Origin: Microlunatus elymi
GTDB lineage: Bacteria > Actinomycetota > Actinomycetes > Propionibacteriales > Propionibacteriaceae
DNA: 64,000 nucleotides
Direction: 5' to 3'
NCBI RefSeq assembly: GCF_007362775.1
Contig: NZ_CP041692.1
Span: 2,914,001-2,978,000, forward strand
The translations under genes were made by a program, and so were the position numbers. Numbering within the stretch: position 1 is the stretch's first letter; the number at the start of each line of letters is the position of its first letter. The notes below the pieces were generated by a model. The model worked only from the letters and a program-made list of their open reading frames with translations, had not been told where the DNA came from and did not search any database. This document shows, one piece after another, positions 12,888-44,876 of this stretch.

Positions 12888-13700
12888 ATGACCGTACGTT
12901 GTGCCGTGCTCGGCTCGCCGATCGAGCACTCGCTGTCCCCGGCGCTGCATCGCGCCGCCTACGCCGCGCTCGGGTTGACCGACTGGGAGTATCAGCGGCA
13001 TCGGGTGGAGGCCGACGAACTGGCCGGCTTCGTTGCTGGTCTTGATCCCAGTTGGCGAGGGCTGAGCCTGACGATGCCGCTGAAGGTGGCCGCGCTGGAG
13101 CTGGGGGAGCCGGACGAACTGGCCCTGCTGGCCGAAGCTGCGAACACCATGATCATTTCCGCCGACGGAGGTCGGAGGGTCTACAACACCGACGTCGGCG
13201 GTCTGGTCTCGGCGTTCGCCGCCGCCGGAGTGACCAAGATCAACTCCGCGACCGTGCTCGGTTCCGGCGCGACCGCACGCTCGTCGATGATCTCGGCGTC
13301 CCGGATGGGCGCGGAGCGGATCCTGCTGATGGCGCGCCGAGTTGATCATGCTCGGAGCTCGCTCGGAGGATTGGCTGATCGGCTCGGCGTCGGCCTCGAC
13401 GTGGTCGGCTGGGGAGATCGGGTTCCGGTCGCGGACGTGCTGATCTCCACCGTCGTCGGCGGTGCCGCCGACCCGATCGCCGACGCCGCGGCGGCCGCCG
13501 CCCGGGTGATCTTCGACGTCATCTACGACCCCTGGCCGACCGCTCTGGCGACCGCCGCCGAGCAGTCCGGCAGGACCGTACTCAACGGGTTGGATCTGCT
13601 CGTACATCAGGCCATCGGCCAACTCGAGCTGATGACCGGCCGTACGGTCGACCCCGAAGTCCTGCTGCAAGCCGGACGTACCGCCCTCGCCGCCCTCTGA
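12888..13700 (+). CDS. aroE: Shikimate dehydrogenase
   Basis: Reduces 3-dehydroshikimate to shikimate with NADPH, the fourth step of the chorismate pathway. It is 270 aa. Substrate-binding motif GSPIEHSLSPALHRAAY is at the N-terminus, the catalytic lysine in LTMPLKVAAL, and the C-terminal GLDLLVHQAIGQLELMTG is typical. The dinucleotide loop is GSGATARSS, where GxGGxxx would be usual. It follows mltG with no gap; the rest of the aro cluster (aroC-aroK-aroB) is 2.3 kb away, separated by a repeat-rich island. Confidence 0.95.
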   Translation: MTVRCAVLGSPIEHSLSPALHRAAYAALGLTDWEYQRHRVEADELAGFVAGLDPSWRGLSLTMPLKVAALELGEPDELALLAEAANTMIISADGGRRVYNTDVGGLVSAFAAAGVTKINSATVLGSGATARSSMISASRMGAERILLMARRVDHARSSLGGLADRLGVGLDVVGWGDRVPVADVLISTVVGGAADPIADAAAAAARVIFDVIYDPWPTALATAAEQSGRTVLNGLDLLVHQAIGQLELMTGRTVDPEVLLQAGRTALAAL

Positions 13701-13723
13701 ACCAGACCCCACCGCGCCCCGCC

Positions 13724-13782
13724 GGATTCCAGGAGGTTCTGGTCGTTCCGGGTGCAGGTATGGGTGCCGCCCCTCCTCAAAC
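13724..13782 (+). repeat. 61-nt palindromic REP-like element, family 1, copy 1
   Basis: Left arm GGATTCCAGGAGG, conserved centre TATGGGTGC, right arm CCCTCCTCAAAC partly decayed. First of six copies downstream of aroE. Confidence 0.75.
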
Positions 13783-13830
13783 CTTCCCTCGAGCCAGGGC
13801 TGGCAGGACCCCTAACCGCGGGCCCACGAC

Positions 13831-13891
13831 GAATTCCAAGAGGTTCTGGTCGTCCCCGGCGCGGGTATGGGTGCGTGCCCTCCTGGAATTC
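13831..13891 (+). repeat. REP-like element, family 1, copy 2
   Basis: GAATTCCAAGAGG at the left end and CCTCCTGGAATTC at the right form a 13-bp stem with one mismatch; centre TATGGGTGC. Nearly identical to copy 3, 105 bp away, including the intervening spacer. Confidence 0.85.
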
Positions 13892-13935
13892 TCCTCCTAC
13901 CGGGCTGGCGGGCCCACGGGCGGGCACCCCACGAC

Positions 13936-13996
13936 GAATTCCAGGAGGTTCTGGTCGTCCCCGGCGCGGGTATGGGTGCGTGCCCTCCTGGAATTC
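13936..13996 (+). repeat. REP-like element, family 1, copy 3 (best copy)
   Basis: Perfect 13-bp inverted repeat: GAATTCCAGGAGG pairs with CCTCCTGGAATTC across a 35-nt centre that includes GGTCGTCCCCGGCGCGGG and TATGGGTGC. This is the type copy. Confidence 0.9.
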
Positions 13997-14039
13997 TCCT
14001 CCCACCGGCTGGCGGCCCCACGGGCGGGCACCCCACGAC

Positions 14040-14099
14040 GAATCCCAGGAGGTTGCGGTCGCCACAGCGTCGGTATGGGTGCGTACCATCCTGCGATTT
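14040..14099 (+). repeat. REP-like element, family 1, copy 4
   Basis: GAATCCCAGGAGG left arm, GGTATGGGTGC centre, degenerate right arm CATCCTGCGATTT. Spaced 104 bp from copy 3. Confidence 0.75.
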
Positions 14100-14211
14100 G
14101 CTGCCGGTGAGTCGGGGTTGGGGTCGGACCTCGTTCCGGTGCTCGTGGGGCGGATAGCGCTCCGAGCGGCCCATGCGGTTGGGCGTTCCGAGCCACCGAT
14201 CCTTGGCCCAC

Positions 14212-14271
14212 GGATTCCAGGAGGTTCCGGTCGTTCCCAGTGCAGGTATGGGTGCGTATCCTCCTGAAACT
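14212..14271 (+). repeat. REP-like element, family 1, copy 5
   Basis: Left arm GGATTCCAGGAGG, centre GGTATGGGTGC, right arm CCTCCTGAAAC. Followed 107 bp later by copy 6. Confidence 0.8.
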
Positions 14272-14318
14272 CTCCTCCCCACCGGGTCCGGCAGACCCCT
14301 CGCCGATCCTTGGCCGAC

Positions 14319-14380
14319 GGATTCCAGGAGGTACTGGTCGTTCCGAGTCCGCGTGTGGGGGCACACCCGCCAACTCTGCA
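14319..14380 (+). repeat. REP-like element, family 1, copy 6 (decayed)
   Basis: Left arm GGATTCCAGGAGG and GGTCGTTCCG are clear; the centre is changed (GTGTGGGGGC) and the right arm is lost. It lies next to the 3' end of the nuclease-like gene on the opposite strand. Confidence 0.65.
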
Positions 14381-14416
14381 CGAGACGCGTGGTGACGCCG
14401 GGCTCACTCATCGCTG

Positions 14417-15403
14417 TTACGACTCCGGATGCTCGGATGGTGCCCAGCCCGGGGGTGTCAAGGTCCACCGGTCCTTCGAGAGGTGTCGCTCGAGTCCGCG
14501 GCGGTAGCCGGCGATCACGCGCTGGATCAGACCGTCGCGAGCTGCGCGGAAATCGAGCGAGTCCGATCGCACCACGGTGACGTTGTGATCCTCGAAGAGT
14601 TCCTCGCGGAGGTTGTCGTTGTGGTGCTGCCAGCGATCACGGTGGCCCTCACCGTCGAACTCGGTCGCCAGAGCCGCCTCCGGATCGAACAGATCCGGTT
14701 TGCCGAGGAGCGCGCCCGATCGGGTATAGACCGGACGGTTGATCAAGGGTTGTGGCAGGCCGGCCTCGCGGCAATAGCACCACCGCAACCTGGACTCCCA
14801 ACCACTGCGTACGCCCGGGCGGGCCAGCTCGAACACCTCCCGGGCGCGGCCGATCCCGGTAGCGCCGCGCTGCCGAACGATGAATGCGTTCAGCTGATCA
14901 TTCGTCAGATAGGTCTTCGCCAGCATCGCCTCCACGAAGACGACCGCTTCCTCCAAGTCGGCTGACCAGCGCGCGCCGTCGAACGCGGTCCGGACCCCGA
15001 ACGTGATCGGAATCCGCCGATGGACCATGACCTCGGCGGACGGCAGCACGGTCTGGTGATAGCGCACGCCCGGAACGGGCCGGCGATGTGGTGCGCCGAG
15101 GATGTCGACCGGAAGCAAGCGCCCGGTTCGAGCGTCGTAGCCGTCCAACCAGTCCGCGCCGAGGATGTACGCCGCCGCCCAGCCACCAATCGCCATGCCG
15201 GCACCGAGCAGCGGCACGCAGTCGATGATCCGCTGCGTCGGCGTGATCGACTCGGCAGCGGGCACGTACCAGCCGCGGCTGGACCGACGCCACCGAGTGC
15301 GTACCCGAAGCCGACTCCTGCCGACGCCCAGCTCGGCAAGATCGGCGACAGCACGCGGAGGAGTGACGGCGGGACGTTCCTCGGAGAATCGACTTCGGGC
15401 CAT
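14417..15403 (-). CDS. AbiEi-like winged-helix / DUF559 (Vsr-like) nuclease-fold protein
   Basis: A 328-aa protein. The N-terminal part (GRSRLRVRTRWRRSSRGWYV) resembles the winged-helix domain of AbiEi-type proteins. The C-terminal part resembles the DUF559/Vsr-like PD-(D/E)XK nuclease fold: E203 in GWESRLRW, D237 in GKPDLFDPEA, and E248-F-D250-G in ATEFDGEGHR form the expected acidic set, and H253 follows. Function is unknown; the family is numerous in Actinobacteria. It lies alone on the minus strand between aroE and aroC, with six palindromic repeats beyond its 3' end and three beyond its 5' end. A paralogue with the same layout is at 29033-29953. Related proteins are sometimes labelled type IV antitoxins, but no AbiEii-like partner is present, so that label is not supported here. 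Confidence 0.75.
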   Translation of the reverse strand: MARSRFSEERPAVTPPRAVADLAELGVGRSRLRVRTRWRRSSRGWYVPAAESITPTQRIIDCVPLLGAGMAIGGWAAAYILGADWLDGYDARTGRLLPVDILGAPHRRPVPGVRYHQTVLPSAEVMVHRRIPITFGVRTAFDGARWSADLEEAVVFVEAMLAKTYLTNDQLNAFIVRQRGATGIGRAREVFELARPGVRSGWESRLRWCYCREAGLPQPLINRPVYTRSGALLGKPDLFDPEAALATEFDGEGHRDRWQHHNDNLREELFEDHNVTVVRSDSLDFRAARDGLIQRVIAGYRRGLERHLSKDRWTLTPPGWAPSEHPES

Positions 15404-15522
15404 CGGTAAATCCTCAAGCCGAACGCCACGATCACCGCCGAGTTATCCACAGGCCGCCGCTCCTCACGCCTCAGCTCCGTGGAGCCTGACGAATCTGCCG
15501 ACTCACGGCCGCGTTCAAGTTC

Positions 15523-15584
15523 GGAATTTCAGGAGGTTCCGGCTCGCCGGCGTGCTCCTATGGGTGCAGGCCCTCCTAGGATTC
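15523..15584 (+). repeat. REP-like element, family 1, copy 7
   Basis: CGGAATTTCAGGAGGTTCCGG at the left (here read in two parts, GGAATTTCAGGAGG and TTCCGG), centre CTATGGGTGC, right arm CCCTCCTAGGATTCG. It lies about 120 bp beyond the start codon of the nuclease-like gene. Confidence 0.8.
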
Positions 15585-15615
15585 GTCGTACGAGCGCTCG
15601 GCGCGCTCAAGTTCA

Positions 15616-15690
15616 GGATTCCAGGAGGCTGGGGCTCGCGGACTGCTCCTATGGGTGCGGGTCCTATGGGTGCGGGCCCTCCTGGGATTC
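15616..15690 (+). repeat. REP-like element, family 1, copy 8 with duplicated centre
   Basis: Arms GGATTCCAGGAGG and CCTCCTGGGATTC are intact. The centre block TCCTATGGGTGCGGG occurs twice in a row, making this copy 75 nt instead of 61. Confidence 0.8.
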
Positions 15691-15803
15691 GCGGCACGGG
15701 AGCGCTCGCTCCCTTCTCCAGAGCTCAGGAAGGTTCGGGGCACCCTGGTCCAGCAGCACAGGTTCGCAGAGGTCTTCAGAGCTGACCGCAGGGACCCGCG
15801 CCA

Positions 15804-15865
15804 GGGACTCAAGGAGGTTCCGCAGCTCACCGGGCGCCTATGGGTGCGGGGCCTCCTGGGATTCG
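15804..15865 (+). repeat. REP-like element, family 1, copy 9
   Basis: Left arm GGACTCAAGGAGG, centre CTATGGGTGCGGG, right arm CCTCCTGGGATTC. It is the last copy before aroC, about 125 bp upstream of the aroC start. Confidence 0.8.
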
Positions 15866-15989
15866 CCGCGAGCCGGCACGGATGCATCCCCAGGGAGCAG
15901 CCCCACCTGGATCGGGGCCAACTGGGCGTCGAGGCGGTCCGGGCGAGACCGGGATCCGGCACCGGAGGGCGCGTGAAAGGATTGCGCTC

Positions 15990-17186
15990 ATGCTGCGTTG
16001 GTTGACCGCTGGTGAGTCGCATGGCCAGGGCCTGGTGTCCATCCTCGAAGGGCTGCCGTCCGGAGTCGAGATCACGACCGAGGACATCGCCGATGCGCTG
16101 GCCCGGCGCCGGCTCGGATTCGGCCGGGGCGCCCGGATGAAGTTCGAGGCCGACAAGGTCACCATGATCGGCGGCGTACGCCACGGCCTCACGCTCGGCT
16201 CGCCGGTGGCGATCGAGATCGCCAACACCGAGTGGCCCAAGTGGGAGACGGTGATGTCGCCGGACCCGGTGGACGCCGAGGTACTGGCCAGCCAGGCCCG
16301 CAACGCGCCGTTGACCCGGCCGCGCCCGGGCCACGCCGACCTGGTCGGGATGCAGAAGTACCGCGTCGACGAGGCCCGTCCGATCCTGGAACGGGCCAGT
16401 GCCCGGGAGACCGCATCGAGGGTCGCGCTCGGCCGGGTCGCCTCGGCCTACCTGCAGCAGACGTACGGGGTCAGCGTGCTCAGCCACGTGGTCGAGCTCG
16501 GCTCGGTCCGGGCGGCGTACGGACTGATGCCGACCATCGACGACCTCCCCAGGATCGACGAGGATCCGCTGCGCTGCGTCGATCCGGACGCGAGCCCGAA
16601 GATGGTCGAGGAGGTCAAGTCCGCGCAGAAGGACGGCGACACCCTCGGTGGTGTGGTCGAGGTGCTGGTCTGGGGTCTGCCTCCGGGCCTCGGCTCGCAC
16701 ATCCAGGGTGACCGGCGGCTGGACGCCCGGCTGGCCGCGGCGCTGATGGGCATCCAGGCCATCAAGGGCGTCGAGGTCGGCGACGGTTTCGAACTGGCCA
16801 GGACTCGGGGCAGCCTGGCCCACGACGAGATCGTGCTGGAGGGCGGCGGGATCGCACGTGCCTCGCATCGCTCCGGCGGCACCGAGGGCGGGATGAGCAC
16901 CGGCGAAGTGCTGCGCGTTCGGGCGGCGATGAAGCCGATCTCCACCGTGCCGCGAGCGCTGCGGACCGTCGACACCAACACCGGTGAGCCGGCGGTCGCG
17001 CACAATCAGCGGTCCGACGTGTGTGCGGTGCCGGCGGCCGGAGTGGTGGCCGAGGCGATGGTCGCCCTGGTGCTGGCCGAGGCAGCGGTGGAGAAGTTCG
17101 GCGCCGACTCGGTCGCCGAGGCCCGCCGCAACTACGAGTCCTACCTGGCCGACATCGCCGAGCGCGGGCTGAAGCTGCATGACTGA
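15990..17186 (+). CDS. aroC: Chorismate synthase
   Basis: Converts 5-enolpyruvylshikimate-3-phosphate to chorismate using reduced FMN, the last step of the common aromatic pathway. It is 398 aa, starting [15 protein letters not shown], the family's invariant N-terminus. [24 protein letters not shown] and [13 protein letters not shown] are also visible. ATG 15990 has GAAAGGA at 15975-15981; a longer in-frame extension into the repeat region is rejected. It overlaps aroK by 8 bp. Confidence 0.97.
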
Positions 17187-28683: not shown

Positions 28684-28812
28684 AGGTCCAGCCCCGACCA
28701 CGTACGCGCTGTCGCAGGCCGGGCTCCTCCTCGGTCGGCCGCCGTCACCGCCACCGATCCGCCAGTCGACCGAATGCCCCGACCCCCCATCTCCGCCCGC
28801 CCCCCAACCGCA

Positions 28813-28953
28813 CGAAGTCGCGACAACACGACTTCGTGCTGTCGGGAGCCGGTTTCAGCGTCCCGAAGTCGCGACAACACGACTTCGTGCTGTCGGGAGC
28901 CGGTATCAGCGTCCCGAAGTCGCGACAACACGACTTCGTGCTGTCGGGCGGTC
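28813..28953 (+). repeat. 51-bp tandem repeats containing an 8-bp stem hairpin (family 3)
   Basis: Two full units plus a partial third, with exact 51-bp period (CGAAGTCGCG begins at 28813, 28864 and 28915). Each contains CGAAGTCG and CGACTTCG, a perfect 8-bp stem around the loop CGACAACA, then TGCTGTCGGGAGCCGGT. Units differ at single positions only. Confidence 0.9.
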
Positions 28954-29032
28954 GATGTCATCGACGGACCGTCCGCACGGTTGTCGGGGCGGCCTGTGGA
29001 TAACTTGGGGGGACCACGCCCGGACCTGCCTC

Positions 29033-29953
29033 ATGCTCTCGGACATGGAACCGGAACCTTCTGCCTTCAATCGCTCCGAGGCACTCGAGGCGGGCATCTC
29101 GACCGCGCGGCTTCGGGGTCCAGGATTTCGCCGCCTCTACCGCGGCATCTATGTCGACGCGACGACGCCAGCAGACACCGCGTTCAGGGCGCGCGCGGCA
29201 TTGCGGTACACGGCGCCGGATGGCTTCATCAGTCATCACACCGCCGCATTGATCTGGGGCGGCGTACCGCCGAGCACCCCGGACGTTCACATCAGCCGTC
29301 GGCGAAAGCGGCGCAGCGTGCGGCGAGGGTTGATGGTGCACCTGGCGTCCCGCGCGGCTCGGACGACCACGTTTCGACGAATGCCCATCTCGACGCCCGA
29401 ACAATCCTTCCTGGACGTGGCCGCCAGCGGCGCGAACCTCGTTGAGCTCGTGGTGCTGGGGGACAGCCTGGTGCGAGCGAAGCGGACGACACCGGAACGA
29501 TTGCTCAAGGCCGCAGCCGAGTCTCGCGGTTATCGTTCCCGCGCTGCCCGGCGGGCTGCTCGGTATGTACGCGCTGGAGTCGACTCAGTGATGGAGTCGC
29601 TGATGAGGATGCTGATCGTGCTGGCCGGTCTGCCGGAGCCGACGGTGAACTTCACCCTGCGTGGTGAAACCGGTGACTGGGAGCGACGCTTCGACACGTA
29701 CTACAGGGAGTACAAGCTCCTCGTCGAGTACGACGGCCGCCAGCACGCCGAAGACCCGGCCCAATGGGAAGAAGACATCTACCGCCGCGAGGAGTTGGAG
29801 CGGCTGGGATTCAGGTTGTTGATCATCACCTCCCGGGGCATCTACCGTGAACCGTTGCGCACCCTCGAGCGGGTCCGTGCGGCCCTGATCGAAGCGGGCG
29901 CCACAGGCATCCCGACGACCTTCAACGACGATTGGCGCCGATACTTCGGCTGA
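29033..29953 (+). CDS. AbiEi-like / DUF559 (Vsr-like) nuclease-fold protein, paralogue
   Basis: A 306-aa paralogue of the protein at 14417-15403. An N-terminal AbiEi-like segment (EALEAGISTARLRGPGFRRL, then YRGIYVDA) precedes a C-terminal DUF559 nuclease-like domain. Candidate acidic residues are E188 (SVMESLMRML), D221 (WERRFDTYYRE) and E232-Y-D234-G (LVEYDGRQH), matching the E / D / ExDG pattern of its paralogue. Start is ATG 29033 or 29045; neither has a strong SD. It is flanked upstream by three family-3 palindromes (28813-28953) and downstream by two inverted copies (29970-30047). Function unknown; an endonuclease acting on palindromic DNA is a speculation from context. Confidence 0.78.
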   Translation: MLSDMEPEPSAFNRSEALEAGISTARLRGPGFRRLYRGIYVDATTPADTAFRARAALRYTAPDGFISHHTAALIWGGVPPSTPDVHISRRRKRRSVRRGLMVHLASRAARTTTFRRMPISTPEQSFLDVAASGANLVELVVLGDSLVRAKRTTPERLLKAAAESRGYRSRAARRAARYVRAGVDSVMESLMRMLIVLAGLPEPTVNFTLRGETGDWERRFDTYYREYKLLVEYDGRQHAEDPAQWEEDIYRREELERLGFRLLIITSRGIYREPLRTLERVRAALIEAGATGIPTTFNDDWRRYFG

Positions 29954-29969
29954 CCGTGGTACCCAGCTG

Positions 29970-30047
29970 CGCAAGACGTGTTGTCGTCGCGCCTTCGGGC
30001 GCTCGGCACAGGAAGCGGTGCCGAAGTCGTGTTGTCGCGACTTCGGG
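29970..30047 (-). repeat. Two inverted family-3 palindromes downstream of the nuclease-like gene
   Basis: CCGAAGTCGTGTTGTCGCGA followed by CTTCGGG at 30021-30047 is the reverse complement of the 28813 unit. A degenerate copy (GACGTGTTGTCGTCGCGCC then TTCGGGCG) is at 29974-30002. Orientation is opposite to the upstream array, so the gene lies between inverted repeat clusters. Confidence 0.8.
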
Positions 30048-30191
30048 CGGTCGGTCGGCCGCGGTGTCGGTGCGTCCCGGACCGGGGTCGGGGATTGCAG
30101 CGCTGGGTTGCGGGGGCCGGGTCGGTTAGGATTGTGCGCTGCCCGAGTGTTCGGGCTCGATCTTTGGACAAATACATGAAGGGTTTGGCGC

Positions 30192-34413: not shown

Positions 34414-34766
34414 GAGGCCGCACCCCGGGTGACCGCGGAACCGTGTGCTGGCCAACGCCGACGGGGTCCTGTGATCCGGTGCGTTCGGACGAAGATCGGA
34501 GGAGCATCGGCACGTCAGAGTTCTGTTATGGGTTCCGAAGCTCCTGCAATTCGAGCACACCCGATTCGCCGGGCCCGGTCTGGGACGGAATCCCAGCTTC
34601 GGTGGGAACGTGCGAGATGCGGCTCGGGCCAGCAGCGGGATCCATGCTTCGGCCAGAGATCCGCAAGGGGCAGTTCGGACCGCCGGGAAGATCCAGTTGC
34701 GGGGAGATCCAGTTGCGGTGAGATCCAGTTGCGGCGGCGAGACGCAGTCCCGCAGCCCGGGTCACC

Positions 34767-42518: not shown

Positions 42519-43032
42519 GCTTCGTGACGCCGCGGCTTCACGGCCGAGAGTTCTACAGTCCAGATTTCAGGAGGCACGGCACCCATAGCGCGCCGCTGAA
42601 TGCCCGAACCTCCTTGGATTCCGCATTCGGGCCGGGTCCTCGACACGGGAGCAACCTGGGCCACCTTGGTACCACGCCGTTCGGTCAGGTCGAGACGCTT
42701 ACGCGGAAGTGCGTCGCCCATGATGGAGAACATCCGGGCAGGAGCCGAAGATCGAAATCGACTGTCCGGACGTACGCGAAGTCTCGATCCCGCGCAGGTT
42801 CGGTTCTCCCGCGCATGCTCCAACCTGCTCGCGAGCGCCGACCGTGCGCGGGAAGCGGCTTGGTAGTGCTTGGTCGCTCCGAGCTGCCCAGAGCGCGGAT
42901 GCGCGGGACCCGAGCCGTTGGCGGTGCTGGCGGATGCGGCGTCGTTCAGTTCGCATTCGCCCGGGACGGGCAAGTTCCGCCGACCACGTCCCGGCGACTC
43001 CGTACGAAAATCAGGCCGACTGTGCAAGACCG
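42519..43032. other. Gene-free stretch left of the IS element
   Basis: No supportable gene. It contains one family-1 palindrome (listed) and fragments resembling family 2, such as GGTTCTCCCGCGCATGC near 42797-42815. Confidence 0.6.
42563..42622 (-). repeat. REP-like element, family 1, copy 10 (inverted)
   Basis: GATTTCAGGAGG, GCACCCATAGCGC, then CCTCCTTGGATTCC. The GCACCCATA centre is the reverse complement of TATGGGTGC in the 13.7-15.9 kb copies. Confidence 0.8.
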
Positions 43033-44690: not shown

Positions 44691-44776
44691 GCGGAGATTC
44701 AATCCGTACCGCAGCGCGCAGCTCGCTCAGACGCTTCCGCGGAAGTCTCCCGGCCCAGGCCCCGACCCGGACCCTC

Positions 44777-44836
44777 CAATTTCAGGAGGTACGGCACCCA
44801 TAGCGCATCGCTGAGTGCTCCAACCTCCTTCGATTC
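44777..44836 (-). repeat. REP-like element, family 1, copy 11 (inverted)
   Basis: CCAATTTCAGGAGG, GCACCCATAGCGCATCGCTG, CCTCCTTCGATTCC. Closely resembles copy 10 and has the same orientation, so the IS lies between direct copies. Confidence 0.8.
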
Positions 44837-44876
44837 CGCCGCGGACCCGGACGTTCGATATCGCCGGCCCGGGCAC

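Follow-up and report, generated by a model that had tools for sequence, protein, structure and literature searches.

The aroE-aroC locus

The window, a 64,000-nucleotide stretch of the Microlunatus elymi chromosome, contains a cassette inserted between aroE (shikimate dehydrogenase, ending at 13700) and aroC (chorismate synthase, starting at 15990), both named from Pfam matches. The cassette carries a predicted nuclease gene, here called a, and nine copies of a palindrome, family a:

13701..15989, unstranded: inserted cassette between aroE and aroC, from the Pfam names of its neighbours and from relatives without it
13724..13784, + strand: family-a copy 1 (75.6 bits)
13831..13891, + strand: family-a copy 2 (85.9 bits)
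13936..13996, + strand: family-a copy 3, perfect 13-bp arms (90.1 bits)
14040..14099, + strand: family-a copy 4 (70.3 bits)
14212..14272, + strand: family-a copy 5 (83.4 bits)
14319..14379, + strand: family-a copy 6, degenerate (28.9 bits)
14417..15403, - strand: predicted nuclease gene a, 328 aa, with an AbiEi-like middle and a C-terminal Vsr/MTES_1575/DUF559-type REase domain
14606..14797, - strand: conserved residues of the predicted catalytic core, E203 / D237 / E248-x-D250-G / H254 / D263 / R266
15524..15584, + strand: family-a copy 7 (71.1 bits)
15616..15690, + strand: family-a copy 8, 75 nt, internal duplication (60.1 bits)
15805..15864, + strand: family-a copy 9 (67.4 bits)

The nine elements reported by the first-pass annotation are genuine, with six at 13724-14379, three at 15524-15864 and the gene between them, and all nine share one orientation. 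An independent repeat search grouped eight of the nine (group D1). The eight copies used to build the family-a model score E-values of 2e-22 to 4e-14 in the model search, values that follow from how the model was made, while the degenerate copy at 14319-14379, which was left out of the model, scores 1.5e-5; what puts the array beyond chance is the genome-wide tally of that model, at least 79 places. Several details of the original description needed revision. The 13-bp arms GAATTCCAGGAGG/CCTCCTGGAATTC are perfect in the copy at 13936-13996 and in that copy only, and TATGGGTGC, which had been taken for the centre, is positioned 4 nt before the right arm. The spacing of about 105 bp holds for four intervals on the left (107, 105, 104 and 107 bp) but not for a fifth (172 bp) or for those on the right (92 and 189 bp), and the 61-nt length holds for six copies, two others being 60 nt and one 75 nt. 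The idea that the arms stay paired despite sequence drift failed, as the paired share of cells over 72 copies is 82.7%, vs 82.8% after shuffling; 276 of 500 shuffles reach the observed value, and no covariation was detected between the arms. Structured RNA was dropped as a candidate, given this lack of covariation and the lack of any Rfam match in 13000-16500.

The cassette is missing from the aroE-aroC locus in 13 of 18 other genomes of the genus, in which that locus has no nuclease match and a gap of 22-163 nt (768 nt in one genome) separates the end of the aroE alignment from that of aroC. Site searches with model R1 found nothing in genomes G012 or G006; model R3 found nothing in G006 and one site at E 0.07, position unlisted, in G012.

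The predicted nuclease

From its conserved motifs, protein a is a predicted nuclease of the Vsr/MTES_1575/DUF559 type. Its catalytic-core residues are invariant across the 18 sequences of alignment A7 and are kept in 81-100% of 64 aligned homologues. The protein's own Pfam match to MTES_1575 has an E-value of 0.018, and the best values among the 18 aligned homologues are 2e-5 for MTES_1575 and 1.2e-4 for DUF559; residues 107-187 match AbiEi weakly (PADLOC, 2.3e-5). Pfam, NCBIfam and PADLOC scans gave no transposase domain in the gene, and no helicase or HEPN domain was matched in the protein. A single-sequence structure prediction was unusable (pLDDT 32.5), and a PDB profile search returned no relevant match, its four hits to designed pentatricopeptide-repeat proteins (E ~2e-9) being judged spurious since no stretch passed alone.

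Dispersed copies and other nuclease genes of the genome

The genome-wide count proposed by the first-pass annotation places family a at a minimum of 79 sites in the 5.1 Mb chromosome (model search; 150 of 1123 first-look candidates scored). All copy numbers given here are lower bounds, as the whole-genome model and DNA searches scored part of the first-look candidates. None of 81 examined family-a sites lies inside a predicted gene and three overlap a gene end by 30 nt, the gene predictions coming from our own codon-usage script, not a standard gene finder. Three solitary copies fall within the window:

34490..34555, + strand: solitary family-a copy (23.6 bits)
42559..42624, - strand: solitary family-a copy (41.2 bits)
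44774..44839, - strand: solitary family-a copy (29.9 bits)

Family a is nearly missing from other genomes, with two weak matches in one of 56, so that the first-pass annotation's refuting outcome of palindromes equally common without the gene was not seen. A match to the palindrome pattern in Arthrobacter OV608 has the core without the outer arms and looks like chance; it came from a search of outside genomes in which the genome's own records may be absent.

The same genome encodes other nucleases of this superfamily, and one of them, gene h, lies in the window with palindromes of its own:

28799..28965, unstranded: three palindromic repeats of gene h (repeat search groups D1/D2), unrelated in sequence to family a
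29084..29953, + strand: second superfamily nuclease gene, h (Pfam MTES_1575 4.3e-9, DUF559 6.7e-6); the frame is open further upstream
29975..30061, unstranded: two palindromic repeats on the other side of gene h, inverted (repeat groups I4/I5, 26 nt at 100%, and D3)

Paralogue c also has a distinct palindrome, found in its own genome only and known at three places away from the gene, so that the palindrome of h is a third beside those of a and c. We rejected the idea that family-a palindromes are common to all genes of the family: for the eight other family genes of this genome the median distance to the closest family-a site is 20.9 kb, a closeness matched by 11% of random sets.

Matched palindromes at homologues

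Matched palindromes bracket many homologues of gene a and usually differ from gene to gene. We scored left-right matching in the flanks of 72 homologues, the window gene plus 71 others, which stand for 74 of 118 match rows (two genes occupy two rows each; rows were sampled roughly by E-value, with some contig-end matches omitted). Matched flanking palindromes were found at 44 of the 72, vs 1 of 173 control genes and 2 of 51 controls with intergenic flanks; under a stricter score the counts were 34 vs 0 and 1. In these comparisons the better of two starts was used for homologues and one start for controls, and control regions were hand-picked at round coordinates; Fisher values overstate independence because the homologues are related to one another. 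Matched repeats are far commoner at the nuclease genes than at controls, contrary to the other refuting outcome, repeats beside random genes with no such enrichment. Two controls among the 51 passed at the threshold score of 18. One has inverted ends and is presumably a transposase; the other is a 160-aa non-nuclease gene with strongly matched repeats, which counts against exclusivity. The remaining 28 homologues, including the window's own unit (score 16), fell below threshold. Some of these failures are due to fragment genes or uncertain starts, and others may be truly solitary; two, G000e and G034, were mis-extended to short fragments and are counted as misses.

A phylum-wide draw gave a similar picture, with 13 of 26 homologues bracketed by matched palindromes. 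Across the order and phylum, the palindromes, mostly about 55-70 bp long, usually differ between genes, yet the left and right copies match. For 20 clear units entered by hand, the median distances are 78 nt between match start and upstream palindrome (n = 19) and 36 nt for the downstream palindrome (n = 18). Protein and palindrome co-diverge weakly (Mantel r 0.167, 42 of 5000 permutations). Among phages and viral contigs, the pattern scan gave no match, and none of the 42 and 69 stretches from protein and profile scans proved to be a relative by tblastn; plasmids gave one 30%-identity match, on an Arthrobacter replicon.

Each of the four families searched genome-wide also occurs at a distance from its gene, and outside the genome that carries the cognate gene the dispersed copies of the families searched were seen in close kin alone. 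Many of the copies are found at gene ends or in the space between convergent genes. The palindrome of the G047 unit occurs at 16 or more near-identical places in that genome, two of them at the gene, and at none in 56 other genomes. Its arms co-vary, all 16 copies lie outside predicted genes, and no target-site duplication was seen by eye in their flanks. Model R3, built from sites of two other species that adjoin no homologue found, gave three close pairs, all of which bracket a homologue.

A proposed REPtron-like unit

RAYT/TnpA-REP genes are described as bracketed by REP palindromes that are dispersed in intergenic DNA, as repeat-specific and as forming several units per genome (PMC2817692, PMC3733652, PMC8266576). 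The present locus shares this layout, with the gene flanked on both sides (six plus three copies here) and family a dispersed through intergenic DNA; the genome likewise holds several units, each with a different palindrome. The enzyme differs, being a predicted Vsr/MTES_1575-type nuclease here and a Y1 HUH transposase there: no Y1/HUH transposase was found in the genome (PF01797, E up to 0.001), in a search positive in 5 of 14 control genomes, and RAYT-driven REPs were accordingly dropped as a candidate. REPs are given as 20-40 bp (PMC3733652), shorter than most of the palindromes seen here. As an association, the proposed pairing of a REP-like array with a PD-(D/E)XK-type enzyme is strongly supported, and more widely than first suggested: homologues in many genomes have palindromes of their own. 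The comparison with RAYTs and REPtrons stands for an enzyme gene between dispersed repeats but not for descent, no Y1 transposase having been found in the genome and family a having no GTAG tag.

We consider it probable that the locus is a REPtron-like unit with an unrelated enzyme, in which a stand-alone nuclease is encoded between copies of its own palindrome of about 57-70 bp, and we infer that the nuclease recognises and mobilises these palindromes. A dimer of the protein would sit on the cognate palindrome, each arm taken by one monomer, and would nick or cut the DNA there or close by, whether in duplex, cruciform or hairpin form. Repair of the break, or copying from the palindromes beside the gene, could then spread solitary palindromes into intergenic DNA and duplicate them locally into arrays with a spacing of about 105 bp, and the whole cassette may occasionally be moved, as between aroE and aroC.

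The palindromes might instead serve a defence or toxin-like nuclease as operators and as anchor or decoy sites, with no movement of them by the protein, which would repress itself at the flanking copies while the dispersed copies titrate it or mark self DNA. The AbiEi-like region, the usual presence of one palindrome upstream of the gene (median 78 nt) and the fact that family a is conserved in sequence but shows no covariation, which is what duplex binding sites should give, all favour this reading, but palindromes lie downstream too (median 36 nt), the near-identical dispersed G047 copies and local tandem arrays need a spreading process, and no toxin partner adjoins gene a between aroE and aroC; on balance we regard it as unlikely. 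Less plausible still are MITE- or REP-type elements moved by an unrelated transposase, with the nuclease genes as cargo or preferred neighbours. Dispersed repeats that are non-autonomous generally rely on an enzyme supplied in trans, and the enzyme here is unproven; against this, the palindromes differ between genes while the gene superfamily is the same each time, and Y1_Tnp, the family covered by the genome-wide search, was not found in the genome. A chance placement of an intergenic accessory gene among ordinary terminators or structural intergenic repeats seems very improbable. The position of many copies at gene ends or between convergent genes would suit terminators, and hairpins are no rarity beside genes (16 of 173 controls have a dyad score of 13 or more, vs 40 of 72 homologues), but left-right matching is nearly absent in controls, the sequences are long and gene-specific, and the family-a consensus (72 copies) has no T-run.

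Returning to the REPtron-like reading, we see about an even chance of a broader generalisation: a second, independently evolved REP-type class, widespread in Actinobacteria, whose enzymes, stand-alone metal-dependent nucleases of Vsr-like type, would each recognise and propagate a dispersed palindrome of their own, about 60 bp long, with several orthogonal enzyme-palindrome pairs per genome. RAYTs are described as the enzymes paired with dispersed bacterial palindromes, the spread of such repeats is called poorly understood, and CGTC repeats are described as having no known enzyme (PMC8266576, PMC3733652). If true, a second class of enzyme that shares this layout but uses hydrolytic chemistry would make repeat spread testable in parallel, would suggest a role for some members of a family that has no name beyond DUF559/MTES_1575, and would provide numerous natural pairs of compact nuclease and long candidate recognition site, with several pairs per genome acting as built-in specificity controls.

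Relation to known systems

By motif comparison, protein a may be related in nuclease type to EDxHD homing endonucleases such as I-Bth0305I. That enzyme is reported to act as a dimer on a target of nearly 60 bp (PMC3943268); here, in contrast, complete candidate sites lie on both sides of the gene and also elsewhere in the genome, gene a does not appear to interrupt a coding target, and the scans of viral contigs yielded no relatives. The nuclease domain belongs to the same sequence family as MTES_1575 (PF18741) and DUF559 (PF04480). MTES_1575 has been reported from giant HEPN fusion proteins, as a REase domain with the Vsr fold (PMC3710099), in passages that mention no palindromes, whereas the protein here is stand-alone, at about 330 aa. 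In open-licence papers we found none pairing such nucleases with palindromic repeats. The weak AbiEi match recalls type IV toxin-antitoxin systems, but here a nuclease domain is attached, palindromes bracket the gene and no AbiEii toxin gene lies beside it. Likewise, no C5-methyltransferase directly adjoins gene a, unlike in Vsr mismatch repair, and its lack of a transposase domain separates it from classical insertion sequences.

As to orientation, the REPs on either side of RAYT genes are reported to be inverted; the family-a copies all point one way, the repeats of gene h are inverted, and symmetric palindromes are uninformative. The family-a consensus (72 copies) has no GTAG tag or variant at either palindrome end. 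As a separate observation, GGTAGTC occurs at one end of the G043, G040 and G055 palindromes, which may be coincidence.

Palindromes around gene a

Two nuclease-superfamily genes of the window are referred to here:
14417-15403, minus strand: gene a, between aroE and aroC
29084-29953, plus strand: gene h

Gene a is surrounded by nine imperfect dyads in one common orientation, six on its left and three on its right, and the coordinates and copy counts (6 + 3) of the first-pass annotation proved correct on re-examination. Its regular 61-nt element is borne out as to the nine dyads and is less regular in detail: perfect 13-bp arms occur in one of the nine copies, copy 6 is degenerate, and copy 8, 75 nt in length, contains an internal duplication. 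The TATGGGTGC that had been placed at the centre is conserved and instead adjoins the right arm, while the proposed spacing of about 105 bp holds for four of the seven within-group intervals (104-107 bp), the others being 172, 92, and 189 bp.

A covariance model built from eight window copies and run on the Microlunatus elymi chromosome gave at least 93 matches (E cutoff 1), or at least 79 places with strands merged (150 of 1,123 first-look candidates scored). With two weaker ones from fetched loci, 81 family-a places were examined: predicted genes contain none of them, and at three there is a 30-nt overlap with the end of a gene; the same gene caller leaves 12.7% of the window intergenic. These places form 45 groups (5-kb gap), and 23 of the 34 intervals under 400 bp measure 91-122 bp. 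Information content drops to background just beyond the element edges (45 selected copies), and the blocks RAT..CAGGAGGTT, TATGGGTGC, and CTCCTG..RAT are conserved in 72 aligned copies, with little variation in spacing. The earlier observation was largely right, but its argument that the arms stay paired despite drift was wrong for family a, with 82.7% of cells paired in these 72 copies versus 82.8% in shuffles. Given conserved blocks at near-fixed spacing and arms lacking covariation, family a looks, from its sequence, like a conserved duplex site rather than a structure-conserved hairpin.

The neighbors of gene a encode shikimate dehydrogenase (aroE) and chorismate synthase (aroC), which lie 2.29 kb apart in this genome with the cassette in between. 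Both were present in the fetched locus of 13 of 18 other genus genomes, with alignment ends 22-163 nt apart (768 in one) and no nuclease match in those 13 loci; in the remaining five, aroE was not within the fetched 1.5 kb. Because aroE and aroC sit close together without the nuclease in 13 genomes, the cassette looks like an insertion in the M. elymi lineage.

A predicted nuclease

The 328-aa product of gene a matches library entries weakly (MTES_1575 REase, E 0.018; AbiEi, 2.3e-5) and has no match in NCBIfam; among 18 aligned homologues, 12 match MTES_1575, eight DUF559, and six DUF2726 at E up to 0.1. Residues E203, D237, E248, D250, G251, and R266 are kept in 97-100% of 64 homologues, and H254 and D263 in 81%. 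Since catalytic residues are conserved across these homologues, protein a is predicted, and expected, to be an active nuclease, whose chemistry should be metal-dependent hydrolysis. Its single-sequence fold was unusable (pLDDT 32.5).

Matched flanks at homologues

To the window we added 71 homologue loci fetched from the order (72 in all). Dyads with a score of 10 or more lie within 450 nt on both sides of the gene in 22 of the first 31 loci and on one side in nine, a setting that had no control; they are mostly 55-70 nt long, usually unlike between genes, and often alike left versus right. Flank matches were scored by local alignment between the 350-nt left and right flanks, with 173 genes from 20 regions and, separately, 51 genes with intergenic gaps on both sides as controls. 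Taking the better of two gene starts for homologues and one start for controls, scores of at least 18 were reached by 44/72 homologues versus 1/173 and 2/51 controls, and of at least 24 by 34/72 versus 0/173 and 1/51. Matched dyads on both sides were found at 22/72 homologues versus 0/173 controls (score at least 15) and at 24/72 versus 2/173 (at least 10). Fisher values for the order-level comparisons are 3.3e-9 or smaller, homologues being interrelated and not independent. The window's own unit scores 16 and was counted as a miss. One of the two intergenic controls passing at 18 has inverted ends and, as read from its sequence, is a transposase gene; the other is unrelated, a 160-aa gene of genome G047 (L257:4431-4913) with no visible nuclease similarity, lying between matched repeats of about 130 nt and perhaps representing another sort of repeat-bracketed gene.

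In a phylum-wide draw, 29 of 296 genomes held a homologue. Among 27 loci fetched from other genomes, 26 had enough flank, with scores of at least 18 in 13 and at least 24 in 11 (Fisher 3.9e-6, the homologues again not mutually independent). A search for relatives of the protein found none in viral contigs and one distant match in plasmids.

From repeat back to gene

Across 57 related genomes, family-a elements are confined to M. elymi save for two weak matches in G005, and gene-a homologues are present in 39. Taken alone, this apparently negative distribution separates gene from repeat. A fuller dyad at the two G005 matches, however, pointed to a related family, present in G019 and G005, whose half-site is AGGAGGTTNNGCACC. 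Seven sites of this family, none next to a then-known homologue, yielded the model R3, which was searched over 40 genomes. R3 gave at least 88 matches in G019, representing at least 50 distinct places (136 of 1,971 candidates scored), five places in G005, and few or weak matches elsewhere; one or more matches with E no higher than 0.1 were present in 21 of the 40 genomes. Among the matches listed, pairs of sites spaced by about 1 kb on the same contig occur three times (in G018, G019, and G008), and each of the three brackets a nuclease homologue, that of G008 having been missed in the homologue search and recovered by translating and searching the interval between the pair. Among the 50 G019 places, the sole pair under 2 kb is the one at the nuclease gene, and single R3 sites adjoin homologues of G014 and G005. 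The test is positive and reciprocal. The bracketed G008 gene (L199, G008:C1:3234655-3235742) is seemingly broken, its N- and C-terminal parts lying in different frames.

Different palindromes at different genes

G047, from another family of the order, encodes a homologue 40% identical to the window protein. The palindrome beside this gene was located at 16 or more places in its genome, including two at the gene itself, in a search that scored 16 of 56 candidates. The copies are 58-70 nt long and 94-100% identical (better strand). Not one of the 16 falls within a predicted gene, many are situated between convergent genes, and the palindrome was not found in 56 other genomes. Its arms co-vary: both-side changes occur in 12 cells versus 6.3 in shuffles (4/500 shuffles this high), and 1/500 shuffles reached the covariation score, in a control that can be inflated by relatedness. 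Certain near-identical G047 and G019 copies (L281 and L282, L284-L287) have longer flanks in common, so larger-segment duplication may account for some of the copies.

Gene c, an M. elymi paralogue, has a different palindrome at six or more places, three of them within 1.3 kb of the gene, in a search that scored 16 of 31 candidates; 56 other genomes yielded no copy. Eight other family genes of M. elymi are not unusually near family-a sites. Protein and palindrome similarity correlate weakly (r 0.167, 42/5000 permutations; 24 hand-picked units, phylogeny not controlled). Gene h forms a third unit (28799-30061), a second superfamily nuclease gene flanked left and right by palindromic repeats of its own, whose sequence is unrelated to that of family a, and at L196 (G000:C1:2997000-3001000) another M. 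elymi family gene has GGCACGTG..GGATTTTCGGG repeats on both sides.

Relation to REPtrons and a possible mechanism

The boldest inference of the first-pass annotation, that a repeat family has a nuclease of its own, survived potentially refuting tests and extends over the phylum. The organization resembles that of REPtrons, but the enzyme that defines them, the Y1 transposase, was not found in the M. elymi genome. Among the known kinds considered, there is none in which dispersed palindromes go with a Vsr-type nuclease, and on these two grounds we rate the system as categorically new.

EDxHD endonucleases are Vsr-like. One of them, I-Bth0305I, is described in a review (PMC3943268) as dimerizing on its target, which spans nearly 60 bp, and the present palindromes are about equally long and two-fold symmetric. 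Because of this symmetry and length, the simplest inference is that a nuclease dimer would sit on the palindrome with one monomer per arm. Cutting could then lead to break repair from flanking copies; alternatively, an extruded hairpin might be processed. Either route could yield solitary palindromes and local arrays and, on rare occasions, move the entire cassette.

Palindromes at the homologues of L190, L191, L192, and L195 (G043, G055, G040) have GGTAGTC at one end and so contain GTAG, a tetranucleotide known from REPs, through either coincidence or convergence.
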